A stretch of 64,000 bases of DNA from Pseudomonas allokribbensis (GTDB lineage: Bacteria; Pseudomonadota; Gammaproteobacteria; Pseudomonadales; Pseudomonadaceae): assembly GCF_014863605.1 (NCBI RefSeq), contig NZ_CP062252.1, positions 2,613,001 through 2,677,000 on the forward strand, read 5' to 3'. The notes below the pieces were generated by a model. That model was not told the DNA's origin, did not search any database, and was given only the letters and a program-made list of their open reading frames with translations. Shown here in pieces: positions 2,450 through 46,446 of the stretch; within the stretch, counting starts at the first letter, position 1, and every line of letters starts with the position of its first letter. The position numbers and the translations under genes are program-made.

Positions 2450-2515
2450 TTGAAGTCTTTATCCTGGAACCCGGCCGCTGGCCGGGCTCAACCCTGAACG
2501 GAATTGTGGTCATTT

Positions 2516-13699: not shown

Positions 13700-13841
13700 G
13701 GGATTCACTCTGCATCTGATCTGTCTTTATGCAAACCGGTAAGCCCGGAGAGGCTTGGGCCAGAGCGGTTTGCCGTGACCGATGCCATCTCCTTGATGGC
13801 ACGGCTTCTTTCAGATCAGATACAAGTGGACACGAAAAAAT

Positions 13842-14687: not shown

Positions 14688-14781
14688 AGTAGTGAAGTGC
14701 GGACGCAAAAGTCAGGTCAGTTTTTTGAAAGCCGACGTGATGTGCCTGTGCCTAGACTGAGTGACGCCCAAGGAGACTCAC

Positions 14782-15738: not shown

Positions 15739-15841
15739 CCAATGACGGCTGGCTGCGTGGCACGGTTTTTCCGCTTGTGATTGGTCCTGACTACCCCTTA
15801 TAAGATCGGCTTTCACTTTCGATATGAAAAGGGTGTCACGC

Positions 15842-17386: not shown

Positions 17387-17583
17387 GGGCAAAAAAGTCT
17401 TTTGGGGTCCGGTTTTTCATCGAACCGGCCGATCAGCGAACAGTTCATCGAGGGGCCGACACGCCGTTGCTGCGCCTTCGATAGACTGCTTGTATCCTGC
17501 GCGGCCCGGGACATACGGTCGCTGTTGTTGCCCCGGTCCGACAACGGCCGTGACGGAAAACGGACTTTCCAAAAGGTACTGAT

Positions 17584-19119
17584 GTGAAGCGTGATACCCA
17601 CCTCGTGATGCTGTTGCTGTTGATGATCGGCTGCTCCCTGGCGTCGCTGACCATCTGGAAGGTGCTGGGCTCTCGGGAGCGCGCACTGGACGAGGTGAAC
17701 GTCCACGGGTTGAACCTGACCCAGGCGCTGGCGACCTATTCCGAAGGCATCGTCCGGCAGAGCTCGCTGCTCTTGCTCGGGCTCGTCGAGCGTCTGGAAA
17801 CCGAGGGCAGCGGCCCCGCGCAGATCGAACGGTTGAATGCGCTGGTCAACCGTCAGCAGCCGCTGATGCCGCAGCTCAGTGGCATCACCGTTTACGATAA
17901 TCGCGGCCACTGGCTGATGTCTTCCAACCGACCGATTCCGGCCGGGGTCAACAGCAGTGACCGGGACTATTTCATCCATCACCGTGACGATCCTTCCCGC
18001 GAGCCCTTCATCGGCCCGCCCATCCGTAGCCGCTCGAATCAGGAGTGGGTGATTACCGTCAGCCGCCGCTTCAATGACGCGCGCGGAGAGTTCGCCGGCG
18101 TGGTGGCGGTCACCCTGGGGGTCGAGAACTTCCTGCGACTGTTCGGCAAGCTCGACGTGGGGCAGGACGGCGCCATCGGTCTGTCCTACACCGACGGTAC
18201 GCTGCTGGTGCGATATCCCTTTCGCGAACAGGACATGGGGCGCAATTTCTCCAAGTCGCCCATATATGCGAAGTACCTGGTGGACCAATCGGTGGGCACC
18301 GCTTCCTTCACTTCCAGCCTCGACGGGGTGGAGCGGCTCTACGCGTTTCGCAAGAGTGAAAAGCTGCCGCTGATCACCACGGTCGCGCTCGGCAAGCGCG
18401 AAGCATTGGCGGCGTGGCGACTGGAGGCGCTGCTGTCGATTGTGGTGGTCGCATCGTTGCTGGGGCTCACTGGCGTGATCGGCTGGTTTCTCATTCTCGA
18501 TATACGTCGGCGGACTCAGGTGGAAGGGGAGTTGCGGCTCACTCAACAACAGTTGCTCGGATCAAACCGGCAGCTGGAGTTGCTGGCGATGAAGGATGCG
18601 CTGACCGGCCTCGCCAATCGCCGCTGTTTCGATGAAACATTGGCCATGGAAGCGCGCCGGGCTCAGCGGGACGGGGTTTCGCTGGCCTTGCTGATGATTG
18701 ATATCGACTACTTCAAGCTGTTCAACGATTCCCAGGGGCATGTTGCCGGCGACGCCTGCCTGCAACGGGTGGGGAAAGTGCTTGAGGCCTGTGTGCGGCG
18801 ACCGTCGGATCTGGTGGCGCGCTATGGCGGGGAAGAGATGGCGATCATCATGCCCGACACCGATGGCGAGGGGGCGGCGGTCGTGGCGCAACTGATTCTG
18901 GAGCGACTGACGCAAGCGCACATTGCTCATCCGGCGAGCCCGTTCGGTCGGGTGACGGTCAGTATCGGCGTCACCGCGGCGGCCGGTCCGCAACTGGCAG
19001 TGGTACAAGCGCTGATCGAGAAGGCGGATCAGGCGCTGTACCAGGCGAAGACCACAGGGCGGAACCGGATGGCAAGGAAAGCTCCCGGCGACAGTTCCCG
19101 TTCACCACTGCCAGTGTGA
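17584..19119 (+). CDS. Diguanylate cyclase with periplasmic Cache-like sensor
   Basis: Membrane-bound c-di-GMP synthase, 511 residues. A first helix (about residues 6-26) and a second (about 285-305) bracket a periplasmic dCache-like domain (YDNRGHWLMSSNRP, DREYF-like DRDYFIHH, GVVAVTLGVENFL). The cytoplasmic GGDEF domain starts with MKDALTGLANRRCFDE; its active-site motif is RYGGEEM, a permitted GGEEx variant, and an RxxD inhibitory site (RPSD) lies exactly five residues upstream, so product feedback is expected. The start is a GTG at 17584 after AAAAGG. No phosphodiesterase domain is present. Confidence 0.92.
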   Translation: MKRDTHLVMLLLLMIGCSLASLTIWKVLGSRERALDEVNVHGLNLTQALATYSEGIVRQSSLLLLGLVERLETEGSGPAQIERLNALVNRQQPLMPQLSGITVYDNRGHWLMSSNRPIPAGVNSSDRDYFIHHRDDPSREPFIGPPIRSRSNQEWVITVSRRFNDARGEFAGVVAVTLGVENFLRLFGKLDVGQDGAIGLSYTDGTLLVRYPFREQDMGRNFSKSPIYAKYLVDQSVGTASFTSSLDGVERLYAFRKSEKLPLITTVALGKREALAAWRLEALLSIVVVASLLGLTGVIGWFLILDIRRRTQVEGELRLTQQQLLGSNRQLELLAMKDALTGLANRRCFDETLAMEARRAQRDGVSLALLMIDIDYFKLFNDSQGHVAGDACLQRVGKVLEACVRRPSDLVARYGGEEMAIIMPDTDGEGAAVVAQLILERLTQAHIAHPASPFGRVTVSIGVTAAAGPQLAVVQALIEKADQALYQAKTTGRNRMARKAPGDSSRSPLPV

Positions 19120-19167
19120 GCGGTGCTGAACGGGCGGGCGTTGCGCCTTACCGATAATCGGCAGTCA

Positions 19168-20289
19168 TCACGCGTACTCGGGGTAGTCCACATACCCTTC
19201 GGCATGACCACCGTAGACCGTGGCCGGATTCAGTGAATTCAGCGGCCAGTCATTGGCGATGCGCGCAGGCAGATCCGGGTTGGCCATGAACGGACGACCG
19301 AAGGCCACGAAGTCCGCCAGCCCGGAATCGAGCAACTGCGCACCGGTTTCTGCGGTGTAGCGCCCGGCGTAAATGATCGCGCCGCTGAAGGTTTCGCGCA
19401 CTGCCTGGCGGAACGTGAGTGGCATCGCCGGGGCATCGTCCCAGTCGGCTTCGGCGATGGACAGGTAGGCGATGCCCACGTCCTGCAGCACCTTGATCGC
19501 TTCGATGTAAGTGGTGTGCGGATCTTCCTCGACCATGCCCAGGTAGGTACGCGCTTCGTCGGTGGTGGTGAACAGCGGGGCGAAACGCACACCGACTTTT
19601 TCACGACCGATGCACTCGGCAACACCGGACACCACTTCACGCAAAAAGCGCAGGCGGTTGTGCAGCGAGCCGCCGTACTGGTCGGTGCGCAGATTACTGT
19701 GGGCCGAGATGAACTGGTTCACCAGATAGCCGTTGGCGCAGTGCAGTTCGATCCCGTCGAAACCTGCCTCCATGGCATTGCGCGCCGCCTGAATGTACAG
19801 CTGAACCAGTTCCTGCACTTCATCGGTGGTCAGTGCGCGAGGGGCGGACGGTGGCACCAGGGCGCCAGCGCCAGGCGCGGTTTCGATGAACACGCTGACC
19901 CGGTCGGTGGCCACCGCAGAGGCCGAAACCGGTGCGGCACCGTCGGGTTGCAGAGCTGTGTGGGACACGCGCCCCACATGCCAGAGCTGGGCGAAGATCA
20001 CGCCCTCTCTGGCGTGCACTGCTTCAGTGACTTTGCGCCACCCGGCAATCTGCTCGGGTGTGTGAATGCCCGGTGTCCAGGCGTAACCCTGGCCCCGGGG
20101 TTCGATCTGGGTGCCCTCGGTCACCAGCAGACCGGCGCCCGCGCGCTGCTGGTAATACTCGGCCATCAACTCATTGGCAACGTTGCCCGGCTGTGTGCTG
20201 CGCTGGCGGGTGAGGGGCGGCAGGACAATGCGGTTTTTCAGGGTGTGACGACCCAAAGTGCCGGGTTTGAAGAAACTGCTGTGATTCAT
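19168..20289 (-). CDS. Old yellow enzyme family ene-reductase (NemA-like)
   Basis: FMN-dependent alkene reductase, 373 residues. OYE markers: PPLTRQRS with the flavin-contacting Thr, EGTQIEPRGQGYAWTPG, AQLWHVGRVSH, the His-Asn pair of IELHCANGYLVNQF (HxxN substrate ligands), YGGSLHNRLRF and a C-terminal VAFGRPFMANPDLP. It reduces activated C=C bonds (and in this family nitro or maleimide groups) with NADPH. Its promoter contains a TAGACCAGTCGACTAG box also found at the nearby TetR/DJ-1 promoters, so it belongs to that electrophile-response regulon. Confidence 0.95.
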   Translation of the reverse strand: MNHSSFFKPGTLGRHTLKNRIVLPPLTRQRSTQPGNVANELMAEYYQQRAGAGLLVTEGTQIEPRGQGYAWTPGIHTPEQIAGWRKVTEAVHAREGVIFAQLWHVGRVSHTALQPDGAAPVSASAVATDRVSVFIETAPGAGALVPPSAPRALTTDEVQELVQLYIQAARNAMEAGFDGIELHCANGYLVNQFISAHSNLRTDQYGGSLHNRLRFLREVVSGVAECIGREKVGVRFAPLFTTTDEARTYLGMVEEDPHTTYIEAIKVLQDVGIAYLSIAEADWDDAPAMPLTFRQAVRETFSGAIIYAGRYTAETGAQLLDSGLADFVAFGRPFMANPDLPARIANDWPLNSLNPATVYGGHAEGYVDYPEYA

Positions 20290-28411: not shown

Positions 28412-29350
28412 TTAATGCGACGAAACATACTCCGAGGGCATAGTCGGCGCTGGCAAGGCGTACGCCGCCTTCATCCACTCGATCTCCGCCTGCGGTGTCC
28501 TGCCAAAGAAGCGTTTGAACTCGCGACTGAATTGCGAGGCGCTTTCATAACCCACGTTGAACGCCGCTGCCGAAGCGGTCATGGCATTGCGCAGCATTAG
28601 CAGTCGCGCCTGGTGCAGACGTGTCGACTTCAGATATTGCATCGGAGAGGTGTCCGTCACGCTGCGAAAGTGCAGGTGAAAATTCGGCACGCTCATACTG
28701 GCTTCGTGGGCGAGTTGCTCGACGTCCAGGCGCTCTTGGTAGCAACTGTGGATCTTGCGTATCGCCCGAGTCACCTTGCCGAAGTGCCCCTGTCGATTAA
28801 GCGCAGCACGCATCGATCCGCCTTGTTCGCCCGTGAGAATGCGGTAGTAGATTTCCCGCAGCAGCGATGGCCCCAAAATCTGCGCTTCGCCCGGAATGCT
28901 CATCGCTTCAAGAAAACGCAACGTCGAAGTGCGGAGCCTGTCGTCCATCGGCGAAGCGTACATGCCCTTGGGCTGCGCATCGCTTGGGCCGTGAAGGTCA
29001 TCCACTTGCTGCATCAACTCGCTGGCCAACTGGAAGTCGAGGTGCATGTAGATCGCGAGCATCGGCTCGGCCTCGGTGGCATCGGTTTCCATGGAGAAGG
29101 GGATCGGCACGGACACCACCAGATAATGCTGGGCGTCGTAAACGTAGACGTCATCGCCCAGATAACCGCGTTTCTGCCCCTGACAGAGGATCACAATGCC
29201 CGGGTCGTACAGCACCGGTGTGCGGGTCAGCGGCCGGTTCGAACGCAGAAAACGCACGCCTTCAAGCGCACTGAGGTTATAACCCTCGACCGGTGCGAGG
29301 GTTTCCATGAGCTGCACCATGCGCGAGGTACCTGTGTCGGCCTGCTTCAT
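28412..29350 (-). CDS. AraC-family regulator, YqhC-like
   Basis: 312 residues: an AraC_N arm (RTPVLYDPGIVILCQGQKRGYLGDDVYVYD) and a C-terminal double helix-turn-helix (LDVEQLAHEASMSVPNFHLHFRSVT, then SAAAFNVGYESASQFSREFKRFFG). The N-terminal domain type is that of YqhC, an aldehyde-responsive activator of oxidoreductase genes. It sits 21 bases after an SDR gene in the same direction, so the pair is probably one operon with the SDR as partner. Confidence 0.92.
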   Translation of the reverse strand: MKQADTGTSRMVQLMETLAPVEGYNLSALEGVRFLRSNRPLTRTPVLYDPGIVILCQGQKRGYLGDDVYVYDAQHYLVVSVPIPFSMETDATEAEPMLAIYMHLDFQLASELMQQVDDLHGPSDAQPKGMYASPMDDRLRTSTLRFLEAMSIPGEAQILGPSLLREIYYRILTGEQGGSMRAALNRQGHFGKVTRAIRKIHSCYQERLDVEQLAHEASMSVPNFHLHFRSVTDTSPMQYLKSTRLHQARLLMLRNAMTASAAAFNVGYESASQFSREFKRFFGRTPQAEIEWMKAAYALPAPTMPSEYVSSH

Positions 29351-29371
29351 CGCGTCCTCTCTATTGGCCGC

Positions 29372-30205
29372 TCAATGGTCGGTGGAGCGAGTCAACGCTT
29401 CCCACTGATCGATCTCGCCGGCTGCGTGTTTGAGTTTTTCACGCACCAGTCGCAACGCGTCACTGCCCAGGAGCAGGTGCGCCGGCGGTGTCGGGCTGGC
29501 GATGATCTGCAACATCGCCTGGGCCGCTTTTTGCGGATCGCCAAGTTGCTTGCCGCTCTTTTCTTCGCGCGCCTTGCGCACCGGATCGAAACTGGCGTCG
29601 TAGTCGGCAATGCTGCGCGGCGTGCGCTGCATCGAGCGACCGGCCCAGTCGGTTCGAAATGAACCCGGCGCGACGGCGGTCACGAAAATATTGAAGGGCG
29701 CCAGCTCCTTGCTCAGCGTATCGGAGATGCCTTCGAGCGCAAACTTGCTGCCGCAGTAGTAGGCGATGCCCGGCATCGTGATCGTGCCGCCCATCGAGGT
29801 GATATTGATAATGCGGCCGGCACGCCGTTTGCGAAAGAAGGGCAGGAACGCCTTGATCACGACAACGGCGCCGAACACGTTCACGTCGAACTGGCGGCGC
29901 ATGTCTTCCAGAGGCGACTCTTCGAAGATACCTTCGTGACCGTAACCGGCGTTGTTGATCAACACGTCGACCGGGCCGTGCGTGGCTTCAACCTGCGCGA
30001 TGACGCCATCGATCCGCTCGAAGTCCGTGACATCCAGCATCACCCCGTAAGCGTTATCCACGGAGAGTGATTGAAAGGCGTGCAAGTCGGCTTCCTTGCG
30101 CACGGTGCCAATGACACGATGGCCGGCCGCGAGTGCTTCCCTGGCCAGCGCATGGCCGAAGCCGCTGCTGACGCCGGTAATGAAAAGGGTTTTGGTGGTA
30201 GTCAT
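29372..30205 (-). CDS. Short-chain dehydrogenase/reductase
   Basis: 277-residue classical SDR. The nucleotide-binding TGVSSGFGHALA is at the N-terminus, NNAGYG follows the fourth strand, and the catalytic Ser-Tyr-Lys is in ITSMGG...YYCGSKFALEG. The real start is MTTTKTLFITG at 30205; the longer frame covers the promoter and a small divergent ORF. Substrate unknown. Likely co-transcribed with the YqhC-like AraC gene. Confidence 0.92.
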   Translation of the reverse strand: MTTTKTLFITGVSSGFGHALAREALAAGHRVIGTVRKEADLHAFQSLSVDNAYGVMLDVTDFERIDGVIAQVEATHGPVDVLINNAGYGHEGIFEESPLEDMRRQFDVNVFGAVVVIKAFLPFFRKRRAGRIINITSMGGTITMPGIAYYCGSKFALEGISDTLSKELAPFNIFVTAVAPGSFRTDWAGRSMQRTPRSIADYDASFDPVRKAREEKSGKQLGDPQKAAQAMLQIIASPTPPAHLLLGSDALRLVREKLKHAAGEIDQWEALTRSTDH

Positions 30206-30235
30206 GACGGGCTCCGGTGAATGGGGTTTCAGCTC

Positions 30236-30400
30236 ATGGTATCCATCGAAGAAACGCTCACCTATGTCGGTTTGTCTTTGAGCATTGCCTATTCCTATCA
30301 ACGAGGCGAGATGACGGCCGATGAACTTTTTGCGTTGCTCCAGGCATCCAGTCTGGAACAGACCGCAACCGCTGATATCCTGCGCAACAACCGCCGATGA
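30236..30400 (+). CDS. Putative 54-residue ORF coupled to esterase
   Basis: Small ORF (MVSIEETLTYVGLSLSIAYS... ending ILRNNRR) whose TGA overlaps the esterase ATG as ATGA. Composition is protein-like (acidic-helical, MTADELFALLQASSLEQTATADILR) and the coupling argues for a real gene, although the ribosome site is weak (GGGG about eight bases before the ATG). No family recognised. Confidence 0.5.
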   Translation: MVSIEETLTYVGLSLSIAYSYQRGEMTADELFALLQASSLEQTATADILRNNRR

Positions 30401-31380
30401 GCCAGGACGAAATGAAGACATCAACCCGCTGGCCCGTAGACGATAACGAGTTGGCGCAATTACGCGCTTTCAACAAGAAGCTTGCCCGGCTGCCGCGCTT
30501 TCGCATCCGCAATCGCATCACGCCACGGGCGATTCAGTTGCTGTTGCGCCTCAGCCAATGGGGCGGTGCGAGAAAGTTGCTCAAGCACGGACTCGAGGCA
30601 GAGCGCAAAGTGGTGGGCGTCGATGGCGCTTCAGTGCCGGTGCGGATCATTCGGCCAAAGACAAAGGCCAAAGGCGTGGTACTGGATTTTCATGGCGGCG
30701 GCTGGGTCATCGGCAATGCGCAGATGAACGACCACCTCAACATCGGCATGGTGAAAGCCTGCGACGTGGCGGTGGTCTCGGTCGATTATCGGCTGGTGGT
30801 CTCGACACCGATCGAAGGCGTCATGCAGGACTGCCTCACGGCGGCCCGCTGGCTGCTGAGCGATGACTGCCACGAGTTTGCGAACCTGCCCGTCATCGTC
30901 GTGGGCGAGTCTGCCGGCGGCCACCTCGCCGCCGCGACTCTGCTGCAACTCAAACAGTGGCCGCACTTGCTCGAACGGGTGAGCGGGGCGCTGCTGTACT
31001 ACGGCGTCTACGACCTGACCGGAACCCCCAGCGTGCGCAACGCCGGGCCCGATACCTTGCTGCTGGATGGGCCTGGCATGGTTGAAGCGCTGCAAATGCT
31101 TACGCCGGGATTGAGCGATGAAGAACGCCGGCAGCCACCGTTGTCTCCGTTGTACGGTGACTTCACCGGGTTTCCGCCGGCGTTGATGTTTGCGGCGGAG
31201 CTGGATCCGCTCAGGGATGACACGCTTGAGTTGGCTGAGCGTTGGGGTAGGGCGGCGGACGTGGAGGTGCATCTGTTGCCGGAAACGGCGCATGGGGTGA
31301 TTCATTTTCCGCTGGGGTTGGCGGGGAGGGTGCTTGGGTATAGCCGTGCTTGGGTTGCGGGGCGGGTTGATGAGGGGTGA
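30397..31380 (+). CDS. Alpha/beta hydrolase, hormone-sensitive-lipase type
   Basis: 327-residue esterase. The oxyanion motif HGGGWVIG (about residue 98), the nucleophile elbow VGESAGG (Ser about 171) and the C-terminal acid/His (AAELDPLRDD, PETAHGVIHF) form a complete bacterial HSL-family catalytic set. It probably hydrolyses short-chain esters. A decayed second copy lies at 34137-34727 with about 2.8 kb of unrelated genes between them, which suggests a duplication or insertion event here. Confidence 0.9.
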   Translation: MSQDEMKTSTRWPVDDNELAQLRAFNKKLARLPRFRIRNRITPRAIQLLLRLSQWGGARKLLKHGLEAERKVVGVDGASVPVRIIRPKTKAKGVVLDFHGGGWVIGNAQMNDHLNIGMVKACDVAVVSVDYRLVVSTPIEGVMQDCLTAARWLLSDDCHEFANLPVIVVGESAGGHLAAATLLQLKQWPHLLERVSGALLYYGVYDLTGTPSVRNAGPDTLLLDGPGMVEALQMLTPGLSDEERRQPPLSPLYGDFTGFPPALMFAAELDPLRDDTLELAERWGRAADVEVHLLPETAHGVIHFPLGLAGRVLGYSRAWVAGRVDEG

Positions 31381-31767
31381 GTGATGGAGAGAGGATTTAG
31401 TGCTGATTGGTGGGTTTTTATGGAGGGCTTTTTTCGGCCAGAAGCGGCCATTTAGAAATGGTTAGCGAACGCTTCGCATTGCAACACTCATGGTTTTGAT
31501 CGCTTAAAAAACGATGCGGCCTCTTCTACTTGAGCGAGTTTGGTGGCAATCTGCCACGTCTGCCACGTCTGCCACGTCTGCCACGTCTGCCACGTCTGCC
31601 ACGTCTGCCACGTCTGCCACGTCTGGCGCGTCAATTTGGCACCGCTAATTAATAGAACGTAGCTCGATGACACGACGCACTTCTCTGAGGCGTCACGCTT
31701 ACAACTCGGACTGCCTCAATATTTGACCCAAGCACTACCCCTAAGATCTCGACAGTAAGGCTCTATC
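31381..31767. other. Intergenic stretch with repeats, no gene
   Basis: Contains one GGCC-centred repeat (TTTTCGGCCAGAAGCGGCCA at 31431-31450) and the 9-base tandem array at 31552-31623. No convincing gene; a minus-strand frame through the array would be a WQT-repeat peptide. Confidence 0.6.
31552..31623. repeat. Tandem array, 8 perfect copies of a 9-mer
   Basis: Unit TGCCACGTC repeated eight times without mismatch. The period is a multiple of three, and no copy shows divergence, so the array is young or homogenised. It lies in the accessory block between the esterase and its pseudogene copy. Confidence 0.97.
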
Positions 31768-34136: not shown

Positions 34137-34727
34137 ATGGGGACGCAGTTACGCGCGTTCAACAAGAAACTTGCCCGGCTGTCGTGCTTTCGCATCCGCA
34201 ATCGCATCGCATCACACCACGGGCGATTCAGTTGCTGTTGCGCCTCAGCCAATTGGGCGGTGCGAGAAAGTTGCTCAAGCACGGACTCGAGGCCGAACAC
34301 AAAGTGGTTGGCGTCGACGGCGCATCAGTACCGGTGCGGATCATTCGGCCAAAGACAAAGGCCAAAGACAAAGGCCAAAGGCGTGGTGCTGGATTTCCGT
34401 GGCGGCTGGGTCATCGGCAATGCGCAGATGAACGATCATCTCAACATCTCCATTGTGAAAGTCTGCGACGTGGCAGTGGTCTCGGTCGATTATCGGCTTG
34501 TGGTCTCGACGCCGATCGAAGGCGTGATGCAGGACTGCCTCACGGCGGCTCGCTGGCTGCTGAGCGATGACTGCCGCGAGTTTGCGAACCTGCCCGTTAT
34601 TGTCGTGGGCGAGTCGGCCGGACGTGGAAGTGCATTTATTGCCGGAAACGGCGCATGGGGTGATTCATTTTCCGCTGGGGTTGGCAGCCGAGCGTGGGTT
34701 GCGGAGCGGGTTGCTGGGGGGCGATAG
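34137..34727 (+). pseudogene. Decayed second copy of the esterase gene
   Basis: Nucleotides match the esterase at 30446-31370 but with several lesions: the start and first ~17 codons are missing, a 5-base duplication (GCATC) shifts the frame near 34205, a 12-base AAAGGCCAAAGA-type duplication lies near 34355, the oxyanion HGGG is reduced to RGG, and about 340 bases are deleted straight after the GESAG codons, joining to the segment DVEVHLLPETAHG. Another deletion lies near the 3' end. Catalytic residues are therefore not assembled. Frames that read through it (210 and 154 codons) are composites. Confidence 0.88.
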
Positions 34728-35092: not shown

Positions 35093-35506
35093 ATGAAGCT
35101 TAAGATGGCTTTGTTGGGGGCAGTCTTGTCTGTTATGCCGCTGTATCAAGCCCTTGCAGATTCTTGCAGTGCCAATATCTATGGTGGGTACGAGTGTAGC
35201 TACGATGATGGTACGACCTCTTCCAGCAGCAAGAATATCTATGGCGGACAAGATACCCATTATAGCAATGGCCGCACCTCGCAAAGCAGTGCAAACATTT
35301 ATGGCGGGCAGGACACTCACTACAGCGATGGCACTACGTCGCAAAGCAGTGCCAATATTTATGGCGGGCAGGATACTCACTACAGCAATGGCAGTACGTC
35401 GCAAAGTAGCGCCAATATTTATGGCGGACAAAACACTACCTACAGTAATCGAGGGTCTTCACAAAGTAGTGCCAATATCTATGGTGGGTTCGATACTAGG
35501 AATTAG
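35093..35506 (+). CDS. Secreted protein of 20-residue NIYGG repeats
   Basis: 137 residues: a signal peptide (MKLKMALLGAVLSVMPLYQALA) and then about five and a half tandem 20-residue units with consensus SANIYGGQDTHYSNGTTSQS. After the signal the protein is almost entirely G, S, T, N, Q, Y and D, with one pair of cysteines near the new N-terminus (DSCSANIYGGYECS). Regular N/Q-bearing repeats of this length are what beta-solenoid or amyloid-forming proteins such as curlins show, but the spacing is not the curlin consensus. AGGGAG precedes the ATG; a terminator follows. No family recognised; surface or extracellular structure is inference. Confidence 0.8.
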   Translation: MKLKMALLGAVLSVMPLYQALADSCSANIYGGYECSYDDGTTSSSSKNIYGGQDTHYSNGRTSQSSANIYGGQDTHYSDGTTSQSSANIYGGQDTHYSNGSTSQSSANIYGGQNTTYSNRGSSQSSANIYGGFDTRN

Positions 35507-35799: not shown

Positions 35800-37011
35800 T
35801 TACAACGCTTTCGTCTGGATGACGATCTGCACACGACGATCCATTGCGAGGCACTCCTTGAGTTCTGACTTGGGAAGATTACGTGCACAACTCGAAACCG
35901 GCTTTTGCGACCCCGCCGCCTTGATATTAATTGGCAATGTGGCCCCAAGGGTTTTGAGCTGCTCGACGACACTTTCTGCCCGGCGACGTGACAGCTGGTG
36001 GTTGCTGTCGTTAGAAGCAAGGACCGGGTTCCGATCAGTATGGCCTGTGACGGTGATCGCGACGACTTGGCGCTTTGACTCTTCCAGGTAACCTTTCACT
36101 TTCGCTGCAAAGGCCGTTAGGGTTGCAGTTCCTTCTGGCGTCAGGGTAGAAGCTAAGCTTTCGAACAGCAAATCATTACCGAGCGTAAAGCACAACGGAA
36201 CACCTGCCTTGTCACCCGGACGTCGAACGACATTCACGCCCGCTCTATTCAATTCGAACTGATACGGAGACCCGCTGCTGTCAGTGAGAAATGGCATCTC
36301 GATCAGTGTGCGTTCGCCCATTCCATGCCAGAGGACATTCACATGGTGCACAACCTGCTCGGGGTGACTGTTGTTCCCACAGCTATTTAGTGTGATGTTT
36401 AGCTCGTCCACGACGCTCTTTACGATGTTCTGATTCGTCGAATCAAGGGTGACCGATACATCCATTTGCCGGAAGCCAAGACGCTGCATGGAGTTGGAAA
36501 TGATGTTCGCTGTTAGGTCGGGTACGACGATTATTGGTAACACGATTGCAATCGTTATGATCAGAATTTTTAAGCGTTGGTGTTCTTGCACTCGCGCCAC
36601 AGGTGTGTAAAGCGGGAGGGGTTTCCAGTACCAAAGAATTATCAAAAGGATCATCGCACCTAGGAGAGGAGCCAATACCTTCACATTTCGGGTTTCCAAG
36701 GCAGCGATGCCGAGTACCAGTGCCGACGCGAGGCCGACAATTAAGAGGCCCCAGTCGAACTTGATCTTTTCCGAACACCAGTGGAAAAGCCCATGTACCG
36801 CCCCCAGTGCGACTAAGTACCAGAGACCGTAGAAGATTCCGAACATCATCGCCGCAAAGACGAAGAGCAAGCTTTCGCTAATCGTTATGCCAGTCGGGTA
36901 AAAATTGATGATGAACGCCCAATAGCTGAAAATCACGATGACGCCAAGGGTAATGGTGACTTGTAGCAATGTGGCGGCATAGGACTTGAACAGATCGAAC
37001 AGATACTTCAA
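35800..37011 (-). CDS. Membrane protein with C-terminal OmpA-like domain
   Basis: 403 residues. About five hydrophobic helices fill residues 12-172; the remainder ends in an OmpA-type peptidoglycan-binding domain (about 275-400) with VTGHTDRNPV and SRRRAESVVEQLKTLG. The start is a TTG at 37011 with AAGGA eight bases upstream; the next in-frame ATG would cut off the first helix. OmpA-domain membrane proteins act as stators or envelope anchors in some defence systems (ZorB is one, but has a single helix). It is divergent from the PLD module with 92 bases between, so it may or may not belong to it. Low GC. Confidence 0.82.
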   Translation of the reverse strand: MKYLFDLFKSYAATLLQVTITLGVIVIFSYWAFIINFYPTGITISESLLFVFAAMMFGIFYGLWYLVALGAVHGLFHWCSEKIKFDWGLLIVGLASALVLGIAALETRNVKVLAPLLGAMILLIILWYWKPLPLYTPVARVQEHQRLKILIITIAIVLPIIVVPDLTANIISNSMQRLGFRQMDVSVTLDSTNQNIVKSVVDELNITLNSCGNNSHPEQVVHHVNVLWHGMGERTLIEMPFLTDSSGSPYQFELNRAGVNVVRRPGDKAGVPLCFTLGNDLLFESLASTLTPEGTATLTAFAAKVKGYLEESKRQVVAITVTGHTDRNPVLASNDSNHQLSRRRAESVVEQLKTLGATLPINIKAAGSQKPVSSCARNLPKSELKECLAMDRRVQIVIQTKAL

Positions 37012-37102: not shown

Positions 37103-38746
37103 ATGAAACTCACCACCGGGTGGTTGAAACCGCCCTACGCAAGTAAAGGGATCGATCACCTAGGCACGCAGGCGCCCTGTGGAATGATCTATGGCCAGTT
37201 GCTCCCAGGCATCACTAACGTGACCGATCGGGCACGTTACTACTCTTTCTATCCTTGGCTGGTTTGGTCATACGACCAGCGCTATTCAAAAGACAACCCT
37301 GCACATTTTGTTGAGCGTTTCCGGCGAGCAGATTGCTTGTTCACGCTGATTGCCGAGCGACACTCCCACGTCGATGATCAAGATGATGAACGACATGGCA
37401 TAGCGATGGTTGGCCGCAACAAGCTCATTACAGCATTGACTCGCTTGAGTGCTGGGGGGGCTCTACGTTTATCTCAGTACGCAACGACCGCAGACTTGGT
37501 GGACCGGTATTTTGTAAACAGGTTGGGAGGGCTTTCTCAGTACTACGCAGGCACCTTGGCCAATCTGATGATCATGCAGTCGTCTACAACCTCATGGACC
37601 AGGTACAGCACGGAATACGGCAGTCTATTGGCGCAAGACTTCGATACAAACGTTGCAGGAAAGCTTTTCTGGGAGAAGATTGAAGGTGACGAGATCACGC
37701 TGGCGGATCTGGATGAACTCAGTGGTTTTTGCGCTTGCAACATCCCTTCAAGTCCCGCGGAGTGCCAGCACCTGACCGATATCTTTTTCGATGGAAAATT
37801 TCGGTATGGAGAGGAGGGCGAGCAACGCCGCCGGAGCTTGGCACTGATCCAGCAACTGGCGAGTGCTCTTCCGGATGACGAGGATCTCTCTGAAGAGGTT
37901 TTTCGTGCTTGCGCCTACACCGGCGTATTGCCCGGAGGGCTGCCCTGGACTATCCCTCCGACGCTGCAAAGTACCTGTGCACTTTGGGTCGTCTATGTGC
38001 GTAACGATCTTCTCTCTGTGGCGTTTCAGACCATCCTCTCGATTTGTTTAACGGAGCTACAGCCGCAGACGTCCGATGAACGAGGGAAGTTCAGCTCGAT
38101 TGAAGCCTTCGCTGATTGGTTTGTTAGCTCTGACAAGATGGATGAAGTCTTGAATGAGCTCGAGTACGAGACCTTCGCAGACCTTGTGGAGCACGCGAGC
38201 GTGTTGGGGCCGACTTTAGCTGATTGGGGAGACATGGGACACGAAATTCAACTCGGCAAGCACTTGATTGCTGGTTGGCGTGGTGGCGTTGAAGCCCCGC
38301 TATTACTCGCCAGAAGCCTTGAGCTATTGGCCATCCTCGTTGCTCGCGATGATTTGACGAAGCAACCCTATTCAGGCTTGGCGATTACTGCGGATTCATT
38401 GCGGGATTACCCAATTAATTTGGTTAGCTTCCGTCATTGTGCCGCCGATTGGCAGACGATGTCAGTGCGGAATGTGACGAGCGATTTGATGCTTTGGTGC
38501 ATGAATACTCACCTGCGTGTGGCGCTGCGCAAACTCAGGCAGTCAGGTCGATCAACGTTCCAGCTTCACCCGTCGGAGCTTGGGGTGGAGGTCGCCTGCG
38601 TTCACGTTCCAGTCCCCACTCAGACCACACCTCGATTCAGGCAGGCAGTACGAATCTTGCGAGACCTGGGGCTGTTGACTCGTGATGGAGGTAGGACACG
38701 ACTCACCGATCCGGGTAGACGTCTGATGGAGGTGGCCAGTGTCTGA
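37103..38746 (+). CDS. Unknown 547-residue protein of PLD-associated module
   Basis: Large soluble protein. The N-terminus (QLLPGITNVTDRARYYSFYP WLVW region, residues about 31-55) resembles in style the F/LPG-T-x-RARY-F-x-PW segment I recall from DUF6361 proteins, which occur beside PLD-domain nucleases. The C-terminal 45 residues look like a winged helix (FRQAVRILRDLGLLTRDGGRTRLTDPGRRL), suggesting nucleic-acid contact. GAAGGATT lies about ten bases before the ATG. Its last eight bases overlap the PLD gene, so the two are a unit. Function unknown; a defence role is inference from architecture and island context. Confidence 0.75.
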   Translation: MKLTTGWLKPPYASKGIDHLGTQAPCGMIYGQLLPGITNVTDRARYYSFYPWLVWSYDQRYSKDNPAHFVERFRRADCLFTLIAERHSHVDDQDDERHGIAMVGRNKLITALTRLSAGGALRLSQYATTADLVDRYFVNRLGGLSQYYAGTLANLMIMQSSTTSWTRYSTEYGSLLAQDFDTNVAGKLFWEKIEGDEITLADLDELSGFCACNIPSSPAECQHLTDIFFDGKFRYGEEGEQRRRSLALIQQLASALPDDEDLSEEVFRACAYTGVLPGGLPWTIPPTLQSTCALWVVYVRNDLLSVAFQTILSICLTELQPQTSDERGKFSSIEAFADWFVSSDKMDEVLNELEYETFADLVEHASVLGPTLADWGDMGHEIQLGKHLIAGWRGGVEAPLLLARSLELLAILVARDDLTKQPYSGLAITADSLRDYPINLVSFRHCAADWQTMSVRNVTSDLMLWCMNTHLRVALRKLRQSGRSTFQLHPSELGVEVACVHVPVPTQTTPRFRQAVRILRDLGLLTRDGGRTRLTDPGRRLMEVASV

Positions 38747-41278
38747 AGCCGTTTCGATTCTGGAAGTGATCAAGCGAGGAGGGTATGAAGCTTCGCTGAT
38801 CACCACCTACAACGCGACACTGCCGTTTTACGAGGAAGTGTTGCTGCGCAAGCTAGTGAGTGCGGGATGTCGACACAATGTGGTGCTGATGGATCGCCAG
38901 CAATGTGCCGTTTCCTGGGGAGTCAAGCCACTCGACCTCGTACGGCTGGATATGCCTACACGCTTTTGCCAATTGGGGTGAGTGGCGCCTTCCACCCAAA
39001 AGTCTGCCTGCTGTTAGGGGTAAAGAAAGCCTCGATCTTGATTGGTAGTCATAACCTTACGCTGTCCGGACTGGGCATTAATCGCGAGATGACCAACTGG
39101 ATTGAAGTGGGAGGCGTGAAGGATGGTGAGGGAGCCGCCATACTCAGATCGCTTTGGCAAATGCTTCGAGAGTGGATCAGCTTGGAGCATGGCAAGGTGC
39201 CGGCGCCGATTATGGAATCTGCATTGGCGATCAGTCGCTTCGTCACACCTTTAATCCCTAACTCGTTACCTACTGTCGTCCAGTCGACTTTGCTAGGACA
39301 GGGCGCTGGCTCTCGTTCACTCATAGACCAAGTTGCCGAGCATCTCACTGCACCGGTGAAAAAGATCGCAGTCTTGGGGGCATTCTTCGATCCCAAGCTA
39401 CTACTAATTCAGGAACTGAATCGTCGCTGGCCTGAAGCTGAGGTTGTAGTCGGTATTGACCCCGAGACGGTGCAGCATCCGGGTGCTTTTGACGTCGAAG
39501 GCGCGCGGCACGTTGATGTGAGTAAGTTGTGGGGACCTCAGGTTCGCTATCTGCATGCGAAGATTTTTTACTTTGAATGCGATCATTCTGCCGGCGACGT
39601 GTTTGTCAGTGGCAGTGCCAACCCCAGTCGTCCAGCTTGGATGGGTGGCGAAGGGGTTGGCAACGTTGAAGCCGTTCTATTGCTGCGCGGTGATCTGGCT
39701 CGCGAGACTGCTAAGTCCACATGGATGAGTAGGCTGTTTGATTTGCCTGAGCTGGATGAAGAGGCATTCGTCCAGATTCGTCAGCGGAATTTGCTCAAAG
39801 AGATAACGCATCAAGACGAGGGGCTGCCGATCCTTTCAGGTGTTTCCGGTCCTCAGGGGCAGATATGCATTGCTGCCCGTGGAACTGACCACAATGTAAC
39901 CGGGGCTGTATTGCTCGATACCAACGGCGAAGTATTGCAGCGAGTCTATGTGATCGACTGTAGCGATGAGGAGATCGCGTTCAGTACGACAGTCAAGTCT
40001 ACGGACATTCGTTCCTGCCTTCTTGAAGAGGATGGCTGCCCTGTTGCTCGTGCAATGATTCTGCATCCCTCCGTGATTGAAGCGGTCGCACATCCTTCCA
40101 GGCGTGAGCAGATTCGTTCAGCGCTTAGCGAATTAGGATCGAGTGATCCCAATATTGCTAAGCTCATTGCCACTGTTGGGCGAGTTATTTTTGCTGATCA
40201 GACTGATCGCGAGATTGAGGAGGCTATCCGTGAACATCGCGCAAGGAAGGATGGCGCTACCGCAGATTTACCACCGGATACCCTGGCGATCGGCATCAGC
40301 GAAATGAACGACAGCAAACACAAACCGCAGCTCTTGAAGTCTGGTGATTTAGCCTTTTTGATCGATATGTTGTTGCGACGTTTGAATGAGGGACTTGAGA
40401 CGCAAAGCAATGGAGTCGATCACGCAGGACGAACCGAAGAAGAGCAGGTGGGGCAGGAGGATGAGCTGTCTGAGAATGACGATGAGCTGCCTGCCGAGGA
40501 ACCCGAGGTTTCAGATACCGATATTGCGTACATAGTCTCGAAGAAGGCTCGATCGTTGTGCAGAAAAATGATCGCACAATTGGAGCTGGCGAGTAGGGAT
40601 GAGTCGCGACAGCTTGTAGCTCCAATTCAATTGATTGCGGTGTTGGCTCTGATTCGAGAGTTGCGCCATTTGGATAAGCTGAAACGGTGGGCGGCCACTG
40701 GGCAATCGTTAGTCGAAGAGGATGACCGCCGCGAACTGCTTGATGGAAGCCTGAAGTATCTGCTGGGATCGGAAACAAGATTGCTTGAGGCGATCGACGA
40801 GGCTGCCGGTGATTCTGCTGAAGAGACGATGCAGCTGAGGGCGTTGCTTGTTTGGCTTGCGTGGGATCTGGGGGACGAAATGACAGATCATTTCAATCCG
40901 ATCTGGGATTACTACGAAAGGACTCCCAAGTTGCAAGCCAACGCTTTGTTTTTGGCGCTCATGCCGGCTATCGCCGCTGATGGGCAAGCGAGTACGGCAC
41001 TGCATGACAGCATCGAACGAACCATCAAGAATACTCCGGTTGCTTCATTGCGGGCGGAGAAGTGGTTGGCGAGACATATGGCTTTTGGAGCGACTTGGTC
41101 GGCAGGTGCAAAGGAGTGTGACGAGATGAAGGTGGGGGGGTATTGTCGAGTGAAAGGCTCGTTCGATGAGCTGCGAGTGGTTGTTGAGGTTTCGCAGGGG
41201 GCGGTGGGGTTTTGGGATTTTGGCCGGACTTCGAAATTTACGCGGGAGAGCGTGGTTGCAATGGTGGCTAATCATTAA
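38739..41278 (+). pseudogene. PLD-family nuclease-like protein, frameshifted near 5' end
   Basis: Two frames together encode one protein of about 846 residues. Frame one begins at a GTG (38739, after GGAGG) with SEAVSILEVIKRGGYEASLITTYN and VVLMDRQQCA; it then stops at 38981. The other frame takes over at about 38905-38930 with FLGSQATRPRTAGYAYTLLP. One missing base there explains the break. Beyond it are two phospholipase-D-like motifs: FHPKV with GSHNLTLSG, and HAKIFYFE with GSANPSRPAW, then a long helical C-terminus. The break may be a real mutation, a sequencing error or, less likely, recoding; no classic slippery heptamer is visible. It overlaps the 547-residue gene upstream. Confidence 0.8.
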
Positions 41279-42391: not shown

Positions 42392-43016
42392 GGTTGTCTC
42401 GGTCCAGGGAGGAGAATGAATCGTAGCGAGGTGGCAAAAACGCGAATAGATACAGATCGGGTTTAATTCTTTAATACTCGCAGAAATGGGGGCGCGCGCT
42501 CCTATGATTGCCGTCCGTGCACGCAACTCTGGCTGACCGCTTTTGGCCGGATACGGCCACATTGCTACTGTCCGTTTATGGCCATCAGCAGTCGTGTAAC
42601 GATGTCCGCTACCGGCCAAAAGCAGACTGTTACGCAGGGTGCCCTAGCAGGCCTCTGTTGAGGCTTAGTAGTATCTACGAAACCCGGGACGATTCAGTCT
42701 GCTAGTTTTGATTAGTTGTTTTTCTGAGGTTTTGAATCTAGTTCGAAATGAACACTTTACCCGATAATTGAAGGCGCCAGTGACCATTAAAAACTAAAAC
42801 CGATCTAAGACATTAATCGCTGGTCGCCGGTATAAAACGTGATTAATGTCCTTGGGGGCGCTAGGGTCTCGCATGATAGCGAAAGGTGGGGTAGTTCAAT
42901 CGTCAGACATCTCACGTTTTGCTGCTTGGCGACACCGCCAGCGTGTTTCCATAAAAGTCATCTTTACCCATGGCGTACTAGAGTCTATGATTGCCCATTT
43001 GGGGGAAGGGATTTCG
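42392..43016. other. Intergenic stretch with GGCC repeats, no gene
   Basis: Two inverted GGCC-type repeats (GACCGCTTTTGGCCG at 42535-42549 and CGGCCAAAAGCAGAC at 42613-42627) flank a third half-element (GTCCGTTTATGGCC). The rest is AT-rich and presumably holds the promoter of the DGQHR/HEPN pair. No gene is supported; the in-frame extension of the next gene back to 42846 lacks protein character. Confidence 0.55.
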
Positions 43017-44045
43017 ATGAGCATTCAGATTTTTACACAAGAATATGACGCAGTAATTAAAAGCGTCGTACTGACTGGGCAAACCACTTACGGGTATGCC
43101 ATTGATCATATTTTTCCTTTGATCAATCGTTTTGCTGCGCAGCGCAAAATTCAGAATCCAGCTTTCTATGATCGGTTGCGTAATGACTTGCTTAAAGGCT
43201 GTTTAATGCCTGCTATTACTCTCGCATTGGTGGATCCAGACACTTCTGCATTTGATTCAGTGCAGAATTCAGAAACCTACGCGAATGAGAATATCGACAA
43301 AGGATATGTCCTGGATGGTATGCAGCGGTTGAATACGCTTAATAGCATTAAGGATGACGAAGATTTTCCGGCCGATAAAGCGCTTTACCTAAGTGTTGTC
43401 ATTTCCGGCAATAAAGATATGCTCTTGTATCGGATGATTACGTTAAATAACGGGCAGCGCCCGATGACTCCTCGACATCAGATTGAAGTGCTCACTGAAG
43501 AGTTGTTTGATTTCGAAGCTTTGGATATCGAAGTCCAGTCGGAAAAAGATAGGGGCGAAAAAATCAAGCGGGGCGCCTTCAATCTTGCGGATATTTCCAA
43601 AGGTTATTTGGCGTTCTTTACAAATAGCGTTCACAATGAAAACAATAAAATCATCAGCGAAAAAATGGATGAGATTATAGTTGGTAATATCATGGCTACT
43701 GCGGTTGTTGAGAACGGGCTTGAGTTTCAGCAGGTGCTTGAGTTAGTGGACAAATTTTCGGTGAACGAAAGTGGGAAGAGCTGGCTAAAAACTCAGAATA
43801 ACTTCATTGGGTTTTGTGTAGGGGTGAAGTCGTCATATGACGCGCTTACGGGAATTAGCGCTGATGAGTTTGGTGAAGCTGTCGAAAAATTTGATGCTGC
43901 GTTTAAGTCGATTGATGCGGCAAAAGTAAACCTTGGCAAGTATCGTCGTGAGCTGAGTAAGAAGTACATTGAGAAGATCAGTGAGCTCAAGGATTCGAGT
44001 GATATTGAGCTTCTTTCGTATTTTTCGGATGAGACAACGGCATAG
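43017..44045 (+). CDS. ParB/DGQHR-like protein (DndB-style)
   Basis: 342 residues from the ATG at 43017, preceded by GGGGGAAGGG (the frame is open to 42846, but that lacks a ribosome site). Key features: LLKGCLMPAITLAL, then GYVLDGMQRLNTLNS (DGMQR at about 100-104, a DGQHR/ParB-Srx-like signature) and LYRMITLNNGQRPMTPRHQIEVL. That order is seen in DGQHR-domain and DUF262-like proteins, including DndB, often found in phage-defence islands. AT-rich. The next gene starts on the base after its stop, so the two form a unit. Activity (DNA binding, nucleotide hydrolysis or none) cannot be read from sequence. Confidence 0.7.
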   Translation: MSIQIFTQEYDAVIKSVVLTGQTTYGYAIDHIFPLINRFAAQRKIQNPAFYDRLRNDLLKGCLMPAITLALVDPDTSAFDSVQNSETYANENIDKGYVLDGMQRLNTLNSIKDDEDFPADKALYLSVVISGNKDMLLYRMITLNNGQRPMTPRHQIEVLTEELFDFEALDIEVQSEKDRGEKIKRGAFNLADISKGYLAFFTNSVHNENNKIISEKMDEIIVGNIMATAVVENGLEFQQVLELVDKFSVNESGKSWLKTQNNFIGFCVGVKSSYDALTGISADEFGEAVEKFDAAFKSIDAAKVNLGKYRRELSKKYIEKISELKDSSDIELLSYFSDETTA

Positions 44046-44954
44046 ATGAAGACTATTAGCTACGAGTTTTCTGAGTGCGCTGGCTCTCCACTTACGGCTG
44101 AATCTCCATTTTTTATTCATCCAGGTGTTGCTGAGTTCCCTGTGATATTTCGTGTTTTGTCGGGAAGTTGTCAAGTCACAAACTTGAACACCGATGAAAG
44201 TATGGTTATTTCAAAGAACTACTTCTACAGTGATGCGCGGCAGAATGATACCTATGATTTGTCCTTTCTAAATGAGTTCGATGAAGGTCTGAGCCTAACT
44301 GATTATGAGCGTCTAATAAAAAAGACGGCCTGGACTAATCGCAAGTTCTATAAGCCTTTCTTAAATGAGTTGGCTAGTTGTATTTATCATGAACAAAACG
44401 AACGCCATACAGCTTCTTTCGTGCATTTGTATCGGGCCTACGAGCATCTTTCATATGCTTTTCCGATGATCTATGCGTCGCGGACTAAGGATTACGTTGG
44501 TACGTTTGAAAATCTCAGAAAATGGATGAGTCATGATTCAGACGGAAATGTTGGTGAGCTAAAATTCCATAAGAATTTTATCGTGAGCCTTTTTAAGGAT
44601 CTTCCTGAACTATCGCGAACCATCGATGTGGAAATTACCACAAGGCAGGAATATAGGGAGCCAATTTTTACGGCTCTAGCGGTGAAAGTTGCCGGTTGGA
44701 ATGCACCAGATAAATACACGGCCACAACAATTCGGCCTGACAGATTGGCTATTCCATTCCTTGAGTATCATAGTTTTTTTGTGACACTTAGAAATAGGTT
44801 TTTCCATTACTCAAACTCTCGCTCCGATAATATTGGGCTAGAGGATATTGTGGATTCTGATTTGTTGTTCTCCTTTGTAAATAAGGTGACGTTAAATTAT
44901 ATTTCTACAATATTCCATGGTGTAATGAAACACCAGATTGCTTCGCTTGACTGA
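44046..44954 (+). CDS. HEPN-like protein paired with DGQHR gene
   Basis: 302 residues, starting immediately after the upstream stop. The mostly helical C-terminal half contains FFVTLRNRFFHYSNS, an Rx4H motif (Arg249, His254) of the kind that forms the active site of HEPN ribonucleases, and an earlier FVHLYRAYEHLSYAFPMIY helix. The N-terminal 100 residues are unlike anything I recognise. As a pair with the DGQHR-like protein this suggests an effector (HEPN) and a sensor or regulator. The HEPN call rests on one motif and helical context, so it is moderate. Confidence 0.6.
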   Translation: MKTISYEFSECAGSPLTAESPFFIHPGVAEFPVIFRVLSGSCQVTNLNTDESMVISKNYFYSDARQNDTYDLSFLNEFDEGLSLTDYERLIKKTAWTNRKFYKPFLNELASCIYHEQNERHTASFVHLYRAYEHLSYAFPMIYASRTKDYVGTFENLRKWMSHDSDGNVGELKFHKNFIVSLFKDLPELSRTIDVEITTRQEYREPIFTALAVKVAGWNAPDKYTATTIRPDRLAIPFLEYHSFFVTLRNRFFHYSNSRSDNIGLEDIVDSDLLFSFVNKVTLNYISTIFHGVMKHQIASLD

Positions 44955-45351: not shown

Positions 45352-46446
45352 TTAGATGACGATAATGGAACTTGACTGAGGAGACGCAGCCTCTTCATCA
45401 ATGGAGTAAAGTGGAAACTGATCGGGCATCACAAGAGGCGACGGTCTATACAGAATTTTTTCGCCTACAACTTCTTGGTAGTAGTAATTGTTCGCTGGAG
45501 ATATATAGTCCACAAATAATTCGAGAGTCGAAATTAATTCAAGTATATCCTTGTTCCACCCCGACTTGATCATGTCGAGTATTTTTTGGTGACCAGAATC
45601 CTCGATATCCTCAAGGTGACTGAAATGTCCATCGACTAAACCCTTGAGACTCCGAACTGCGCGCCGATAATCTTTCGCAAAGCAATTAGATTTTGAAAAA
45701 TGCAGGATCCAACGCTCTACAGCCTCGCTTCGATTTAGACTTATTTCACCTTTGATCGAATCATCTCCATGCTTGTTCTTATCAGATACACCAATGCCAA
45801 AGGTGCAATGCTTGTCTTTCATTGGTTTATCTTTGTAGTACGAGGGCAGGAATAAGGATTCGCCGTGATTCCCTTCAACTTCTCCAACAAATCCGATCGT
45901 CTCTTCATCGTTTGAAATCAATATAAACAAATCAGAATTCTTTAAGGTTTCATCCAGACTCAATCCGGGGGTTATAGTTGTTGGATAAGCCTTCACCCCC
46001 CGAGGTAGAAGCATCAAAACTCTTGTTTTGTTATAGTTTCTTTGGGCAAAATGAAATTCAGAATCATTGCCCACCTTAAATATGTTCATTTTGGTTATGT
46101 TAAAGTCTTTAATTTCATACTCGCTCAATACGCTCGCACATAACTCTTTGAAGTATGAGATTCCAGTTTTTGTTTTAAGGAAGTCAACCATGACATATTC
46201 GAATGCATGGTTTAAGACTGTATTTTCCATTTTTCCGAAGAAGCCACTTTCTCTAAGTGCGCCCTTATAGTCTTGTAAGCTTGAACTATAACCCCAATTA
46301 AAAGTAAGGTTTTTCTGATAGCGCACAGTTTTCAATATCGCGCAGTAAAAAGATGCCCAGTAAGAGGCGGTATCCCCAATGATGCCTCTCGCAGCTTGAG
46401 GTAATAGTACGGTAGTGTCAGTATTCAATTTCCACCTCGAAATCAT
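45352..46446 (-). CDS. Orphan protein of unknown function, 364 residues
   Basis: Soluble protein, AT-rich, lysine-rich, without recognised domain. The middle part has LFILISNDEETIGFVGEVEG, an acidic strand-turn-strand (E-x-E) that could belong to a nuclease-like fold but is not diagnostic. Two starts are possible: ATG at 46446 without a ribosome site, or TTG at 46428 with GAGGTG five bases upstream; the second may be the real one. It converges toward the DGQHR/HEPN pair with about 400 bases between. Probably cargo of the same island; function not assigned. Confidence 0.65.
   Translation of the reverse strand: MISRWKLNTDTTVLLPQAARGIIGDTASYWASFYCAILKTVRYQKNLTFNWGYSSSLQDYKGALRESGFFGKMENTVLNHAFEYVMVDFLKTKTGISYFKELCASVLSEYEIKDFNITKMNIFKVGNDSEFHFAQRNYNKTRVLMLLPRGVKAYPTTITPGLSLDETLKNSDLFILISNDEETIGFVGEVEGNHGESLFLPSYYKDKPMKDKHCTFGIGVSDKNKHGDDSIKGEISLNRSEAVERWILHFSKSNCFAKDYRRAVRSLKGLVDGHFSHLEDIEDSGHQKILDMIKSGWNKDILELISTLELFVDYISPANNYYYQEVVGEKILYRPSPLVMPDQFPLYSIDEEAASPQSSSIIVI

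Follow-up and report, generated by a model that had tools for sequence, protein, structure and literature searches.

The window analysed here, a 64,000-nucleotide stretch of the Pseudomonas allokribbensis genome (contig NZ_CP062252.1, positions 2,613,001 to 2,677,000), carries on its forward strand two adjoining genes, A followed by B, which we consider a candidate anti-phage module (Table 1). As originally predicted from the sequence, a 547-amino-acid (aa) open reading frame (ORF) at 37103–38746 is followed by a gene with phospholipase D (PLD) motifs, and the two overlap by eight bases, from the GTG start codon of B at 38739 to the 3' end of A at 38746. The single ORF of about 846 residues that had been assigned to B does not exist in the window, however: the frame changes near position 38918, and ~846 residues is instead the length of its relatives.

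Table 1 Features of genes A and B, with the evidence for each
Feature	Position in window	Strand	Evidence
Gene A, 547 aa	37103..38746	+	Intact ORF; N-terminal motif in common with DUF6361/ZacA, winged-helix-like C-terminus
A residues 16-61, conserved block around GIDHLGTQAP...LLPGITNVTDRARYYSFYPW	37148..37285	+	Many invariant or near-invariant columns in 60-row alignment A3; stretch in common with ZacA
A residues 505-541, winged-helix-like end	38615..38725	+	HemN_C (PF06969) at residues 509-541, E 0.0033, under Pfam cut-off
Gene B, first 60 residues	38739..38918	+	tblastn of six relatives: residues 1-60 map here at 85-97% identity, in a frame other than the rest
Frame break in B	38918..38921	+	Six of six relatives compared (five full-length; P0126, 774 aa); intact copies in relatives
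Gene B, remainder: PLD part holding the two motif pairs, followed by ~500-residue extension without family	38921..41278	+	Sequence, profile matches
First PLD motif pair, HPK...GSHN	38993..39055	+	Sequence
Second PLD motif pair, HAK...GSAN	39554..39622	+	Sequence

The break in B had escaped the original prediction; every one of the six relatives compared places it at 38918/38921. The longest B ORF in the window, of 803 aa, starts at an internal ATG (38867) and is without the 60 residues conserved at the N-terminus. Programmed frameshifting was ruled out, since 114 of the 120 B relatives listed are 839–865 aa long. Because its reading frame is interrupted, the local copy of B is probably inactive, and so, probably, is the window copy of the module unless the assembly is wrong at the break, which may stem from either a mutation or an assembly error. 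Shortened or interrupted copies were also observed at loci L020 (11622–12878) and L046 (3648–6193) and in relatives P0126 and P0100, the module apparently being often broken.

Motif content suggests that B is a nuclease of the PLD superfamily whose single chain contains both halves of the active site. The two motif pairs first noted from the sequence of the window copy were confirmed at the positions in Table 1, and both pairs, the feature that marks membership of this nuclease superfamily, were detected in 118 of the 120 B relatives listed; the search behind that list scored 8000 candidates and gave 378 relatives at E ≤ 1e-3. Across the 68 rows of alignment A2, H86, G103, S104, N106, and E117 of the first pair and H273, K275, G292, S293, N295, and E311 of the second are invariant, and K88 is a lysine in 67 rows and an arginine in L034. 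Such glutamates matter in the nucleases Nuc and BfiI. The Pfam family PLDc_2 matched window B at E 7.2e-6, with 26.3 bits against a cut-off of 27, and exceeded that cut-off in all six B relatives scanned. Among PADLOC models, window B was matched by ZacB (E 1.8e-9 over 61 residues, vs. 6.9e-155 for a true ZacB), PDC-M27B (3.3e-6), and DrmC (0.0018, 40 residues). The ~500 residues that follow the PLD part, from about residue 340, matched no family.

Azaca, the nearest named system to the A-B pair, consists of ZacA, the PLD protein ZacB, and the helicase ZacC. A PLD-like domain is listed for it in PMC10952713, and PMC12278908 places ZacC among superfamily 1 and 2 (SF1/SF2) helicases. The likeness extends to gene A, which the ZacA model matched at E 9.6e-4 over residues 32–76, and comparison of the A profile with a ZacA alignment of five rows gave a match spanning 49 columns (probability 71.7, E 3.5e-5). 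NCBIfam and PHROGs otherwise hold no family for window A, and Pfam returned the sub-threshold HemN_C match alone; DUF6361 gave no Pfam match for window A and stayed under the cut-off for relatives L040 and L049. Relatives of A numbered 908 at E ≤ 1e-3 (8000 candidates scored), and among the 120 listed the NCBI names are "hypothetical protein". Within the winged-helix-like end, R511 and D521 are invariant in all 60 rows of A3, and A probably binds nucleic acid through this end and acts with B. Searched against Pfam and PADLOC, the two proteins thus bear out in part the families originally expected, with PLDc_2 just under the cut-off in B, DUF6361 unmatched in A, and the ZacA and ZacB models matched at scores far below those of a true ZacA and ZacB.

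To assess linkage, we drew on 50 loci obtained by scanning species genomes with two peptide patterns, a sample biased toward that motif and with ORFs called by length, so that overlaps are approximate. The predicted two-gene module held throughout: wherever A reaches 500 aa, which is so at 40 loci, all or part of B adjoins A on the same strand, as 35 pairs of normal length, three cut by a contig end (L013, L036, L038), one shortened (L020), and one split (L046). The other 10 loci comprise one with both genes (L030), three that end in A at a contig edge (L043, L045, L050), and six fragments or very distant matches (L019, L023, L042, L047, L048, L051), among which L048 holds broken pieces of A and B. 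Whole-genome searches added seven strong matches outside the window (L053, L054, L075–L079), all with an adjoining B, although L054 repeats L039 and L075 is probably the same as L006; two distant A-like matches (L080, L082) had no B in the short stretch examined. Pairwise distances of A and B were closely correlated over 35 loci (r = 0.956, with none of 2000 permutations as high), a correlation to which shared descent contributes. The ratio of nonsynonymous to synonymous substitution rates (dN/dS) was 0.098–0.149 for A (six pairs) and 0.139–0.160 for B (three pairs), with three L003 comparisons of B left out and window comparisons unused because synonymous sites were saturated. A and B are under purifying selection and form a conserved two-gene module.

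Gene order bears on one alternative, namely a toxin-antitoxin-like form of abortive infection in which B would be a harmful nuclease restrained by A and freed on infection. Antitoxin-then-toxin order is common, and here A comes first and overlaps or nearly touches B. Two other genomes of the genus, however, carry a related pair in reverse order, B'-A' (L067, 7828–11900; L068, 6834–10912), and the usual toxin-antitoxin proteins are much smaller than A and B, which also counts against this explanation. The state of the window, where A is retained but B is no longer intact, is compatible with this and other models alike. On balance, we consider a toxin-antitoxin arrangement quite improbable.

The pair ranges from Pseudomonas to metagenomic Acidobacteria and Omnitrophota. 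Within the genus, full-length A occurs in 3 of 398 genomes, the source genome included, and within the phylum A was matched at E ≤ 1e-3 in 8 of 398, a count that includes the source genome and one DUF6361 gene. Eleven of 72,556 plasmid records matched A, one of them (Undibacterium sp. YM2) over 95%, and E. coli genomes gave no DNA match to 37103–41100.

Genes with defence functions appear enriched around the pair. The recurrent neighbour clusters, each labelled from one representative, were HsdM, HsdS, HsdR, a DrmMI/type IIG-like methylase, a DrmD/DpdE-like helicase, Fic, an AAA protein, and PDC-S14. Such clusters were present in 23 of the 50 loci, including 18 of the 40 loci where A is full, with L015 and L023 having Fic only. 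Nine further neighbours were scanned, among which Mokosh MkoA, Dsr1, a DpdF/GajB-like protein, PDC-S11, and AbiE were found. Dsr1 also precedes A at L010, and at L002 and L003 the pair is flanked by HsdS and HsdR, two genes standing ahead of it. Defence genes are more frequent beside the pair than among control proteins: the 71 nearest neighbours matched 129 PADLOC models at E ≤ 1e-15, with up to four members each, compared with 31 models for 71 controls, these being model rather than protein counts, since one protein can match several models and near-identical neighbours (L002, L003) were counted twice. The controls were 71 of 107 proteins from 37 of 40 contig-start stretches of the same genomes, and proteins were cut at 700 residues. 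The pair thus combines conserved linkage with a defence-rich neighbourhood, as defence systems do, although the control was not empty.

We next considered whether the module has a third component. Where an ORF was seen after B (35 loci), it lies on the same strand and no more than 60 nucleotides away in ten cases; four of these are HsdR, and no other cluster repeats among the ten. The candidates c11 (226 aa, three loci), HsdR, PDC-S14, and others were rejected, each being present in few loci only. ZacC was found neither among the window neighbours scanned nor adjoining B in the 35 loci, and the originally proposed composition, without a helicase or methylase as a constant part, is upheld, helicases in general near the pair not being counted.

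The helicase search also bears on a second alternative, in which A-B would be an Azaca that has diverged and obtains its helicase in trans, either from a separate Azaca or from restriction or DISARM-like genes nearby. The homology of B to ZacB and the ZacA motif in A would fit such an origin, as would the HsdR genes directly after B, DrmD/DpdE-like helicases in five loci, a complete Azaca downstream of A-B in one genome, and a ZacC-model match somewhere in 22 of 41 genomes with the pair. Nearly all of these matches, however, are short helicase stretches, also seen in 6 of 14 control genomes; two of the 22 genomes have more than partial ones, one full-length on the contig of L025 and one half-length (G757) on another contig than the L022 pair and so unlinked. 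Likewise, the 4 of 601 ORFs of the 50 loci that matched the ZacC profile are all partial and DrmD/DpdE-like. The profile does recover the true ZacC of the L025 contig, which lies just outside the locus stretch covered by the 601-ORF scan. On that contig, A-B occupies 248–4448 and a complete ZacA-ZacB-ZacC lies 8.9 kb downstream at 13311–19502; because both stand apart on one contig, A-B and Azaca are separate systems, and the full ZacC belongs to its own ZacA-ZacB. The length of A (~550 rather than ~400 aa) and its alignment with ZacA over about 50 residues also argue against a diverged Azaca, which we regard as unlikely, if somewhat less so than a toxin-antitoxin pair. A further PLD-like ORF, of 403 aa (L124, 12091–13302; B profile E 1e-11), immediately precedes the complete Azaca of this A-B contig.

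Taken together, these results point towards A-B being a two-gene anti-phage module in which B would be a PLD nuclease effector and A would recognise the target or activate B, a reading to which we assign a probability of roughly 0.6. The analysis establishes the conserved PLD motifs, the linkage, co-divergence, and purifying selection, the defence-rich neighbourhood, and a module without ZacC; protection against phages, nuclease cutting, its target, and a sensor role of A are inferred, and the pair is probably an unnamed, helicase-less, anti-phage relative of Azaca. Under this model, A would recognise foreign or damaged nucleic acid, or switch B on, bound to nucleic acid through its winged-helix-like end and working with B. 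On infection, the A-B complex would cut foreign DNA or the nucleic acid of the infected cell, doing so without a helicase motor of its own. The module is often embedded in, or flanked by, type I restriction genes or DISARM-like ones.

Several observations weigh against this interpretation. The winged helix of A is based on a sub-threshold HemN_C match; a sequence search of solved structures found none related to A and gave sub-threshold matches only for B (E 0.33 and 0.58). A or B is broken or shortened in several copies (the window, P0126, P0100, L020, and L046), no A match was found in 50,697 phage records, and none of 22 A pattern matches in viral contigs was confirmed. In the genome with a complete Azaca 8.9 kb from A-B, the helicase might be shared. 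Three of the nine further neighbours (L044, L026, L039) matched no PADLOC model at E ≤ 1e-6. Finally, the recurrent labelled clusters are missing in 27 of the 50 loci, and the control proteins themselves matched defence models at E ≤ 1e-15, with one member each. These last two points would also suit a DNA-processing or repair pair without a role in defence that happens to sit in accessory regions; the patchy presence across genus and phylum and the defence-rich neighbourhoods argue against such a pair, and we find it very improbable.

If A-B is indeed an anti-phage module, current annotation has missed a widespread immune module. A ZacA/ZacB-like core would then persist without ZacC, once beside a complete Azaca, making the contribution of the helicase to Azaca testable, and DUF6361-like proteins, a Pfam family of unknown function, would have a second genetic arrangement.

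In the source genome, a single contig of 6.57 Mb, the 803-aa B ORF matches one place only. The module was originally placed in a low-GC, repeat-rich accessory region, and the lower G + C content (GC) is clear (0.538 for A and 0.531 for B vs. 0.591 at 20–28 kb and 0.62 at 50–60 kb of the window), whereas the repeats lie near the module and none within it (a 9-bp tandem repeat at 31541 and a 60-bp coding repeat at 35168). The left flank (28413–31381) is present without the module in L071, the best match of four relatives fetched: it aligns there at 88%, and no module sequence aligned within the 19.5 kb examined. Conservation without the module was shown for this flank only, as searches with two flanking regulator genes for the island borders returned many paralogues. 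An esterase-like gene (30397–31380) has a broken second copy ~3.7 kb downstream (34144–34685), with pieces 89–94% identical, and relative G016 has a single copy in the stretch examined; these copies appear to be a duplication or insertion scar on the left side of the accessory region. Further along, a 137-aa ORF (35093–35506) contains 60-bp (20-residue) repeats with SANIYGG units. A reverse-strand gene (35800–37011) points away from gene A, their start codons 91 bases apart; its 403-aa product has an OmpA domain at the C-terminus, matched by ZorB models too (E 1e-10). ZorA had no match among the neighbouring window ORFs scanned with PADLOC models. On the other side lie a DzbA-like gene (42846–44045; PADLOC DzbA E 3.4e-46, GmrSD_N weak) and, directly after it, a 302-aa gene (44046–44954) for which no match was found and whose RNRFFH stretch resembles the Rx4-6H HEPN motif. 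The two may possibly be a Dazbog variant with another partner. A 364-aa ORF on the reverse strand (45352–46446; GC 0.40) matched nothing in Pfam, PADLOC, NCBIfam, or PHROGs.

With regard to known systems, the PLD domain apart, no family of PADLOC-DB 2.0.0, Pfam, NCBIfam 20.0, or PHROGs 4 accommodates either window protein. No such pair is named in the literature searched, which included PMC10952713, PMC12278908, PMC12629846, and PMC12839542, as well as PMC8565338 with no match, and had most subscription papers outside its scope. The claim in the original prediction that the pair matches no named system therefore stands within these databases and this literature, but its relationship to Azaca had been overlooked.

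Like DISARM, the pair has a PLD-type protein (DrmC in DISARM), and DISARM-like genes neighbour several A-B loci. The DrmC match of B is weak, however, and DISARM membership was ruled out since DrmA, DrmB, and a methylase are not part of the module. B also resembles PDC-M27B of the PADLOC candidate PDC-M27, but the PDC-M27C models match ZacC-type helicases, none of which is constant beside A-B. With PLD-type restriction endonucleases such as BfiI and R.NgoFVII, B has the active-site motifs in common; one distant relative of B (L040) scored above the RE_NgoFVII cut-off, and the ZacB profile gave sub-threshold matches to 4rct and 2c1l. BfiI and R.NgoFVII have one motif pair per chain and, to our knowledge, no partner of the A kind, unlike B with its two pairs and partner gene.

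Azaca comes closest. All five DUF6361/ZacA loci fetched consist of a DUF6361 gene, a PLD-like gene, and a gene of ~1050–1130 aa; the four large proteins scanned were ZacC and the two PLD proteins scanned were ZacB. The early hunch that linked DUF6361 proteins to PLD-helicases was thus close, although it missed Azaca as the nearest system. The A-B pair has the same order, DUF6361-like then PLD gene; A has the N-terminal motif block of DUF6361/ZacA (about 50 residues), and the B profile aligns with ZacB over 298 columns (probability 98.6), covering the PLD part only. Unlike Azaca, the module is without ZacC, A is ~550 aa long vs. ~400 for ZacA, and B is ~850 aa long, with its ~500-residue extension unaligned to ZacB. 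Azaca membership was ruled out on ZacA and ZacC, window A matching the ZacA model over 45 residues at an E-value far from the 4.8e-102 of a true ZacA. In its probable mode of action, A-B is Azaca-like but without the motor.

The reverse-order pair B'-A' represents a third unnamed arrangement, or branch, of the same core. A' aligns with A over 478 columns (probability 97.4) and B' with B over 292 (99.6), order being the difference; A' belongs to no PADLOC family, and the 272-aa gene after A' at L067 was rejected as a component because it is a solute-binding protein. A broader proposal, which we put forward tentatively and hold to be less probable than its negation, is that A-B constitutes an immunity class of its own: a PLD nuclease of two proteins and no motor, with A as the direct reader of the target, found in Pseudomonadota, Acidobacteria, Myxococcales-type bacteria, and Omnitrophota (many of them metagenomic) and insertable as a plug-in among the genes of type I restriction operons. 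A single sensor-plus-PLD core might then have three branches, namely A-B, Azaca, and the reverse-order pair, the helicase having been either gained later or lost.

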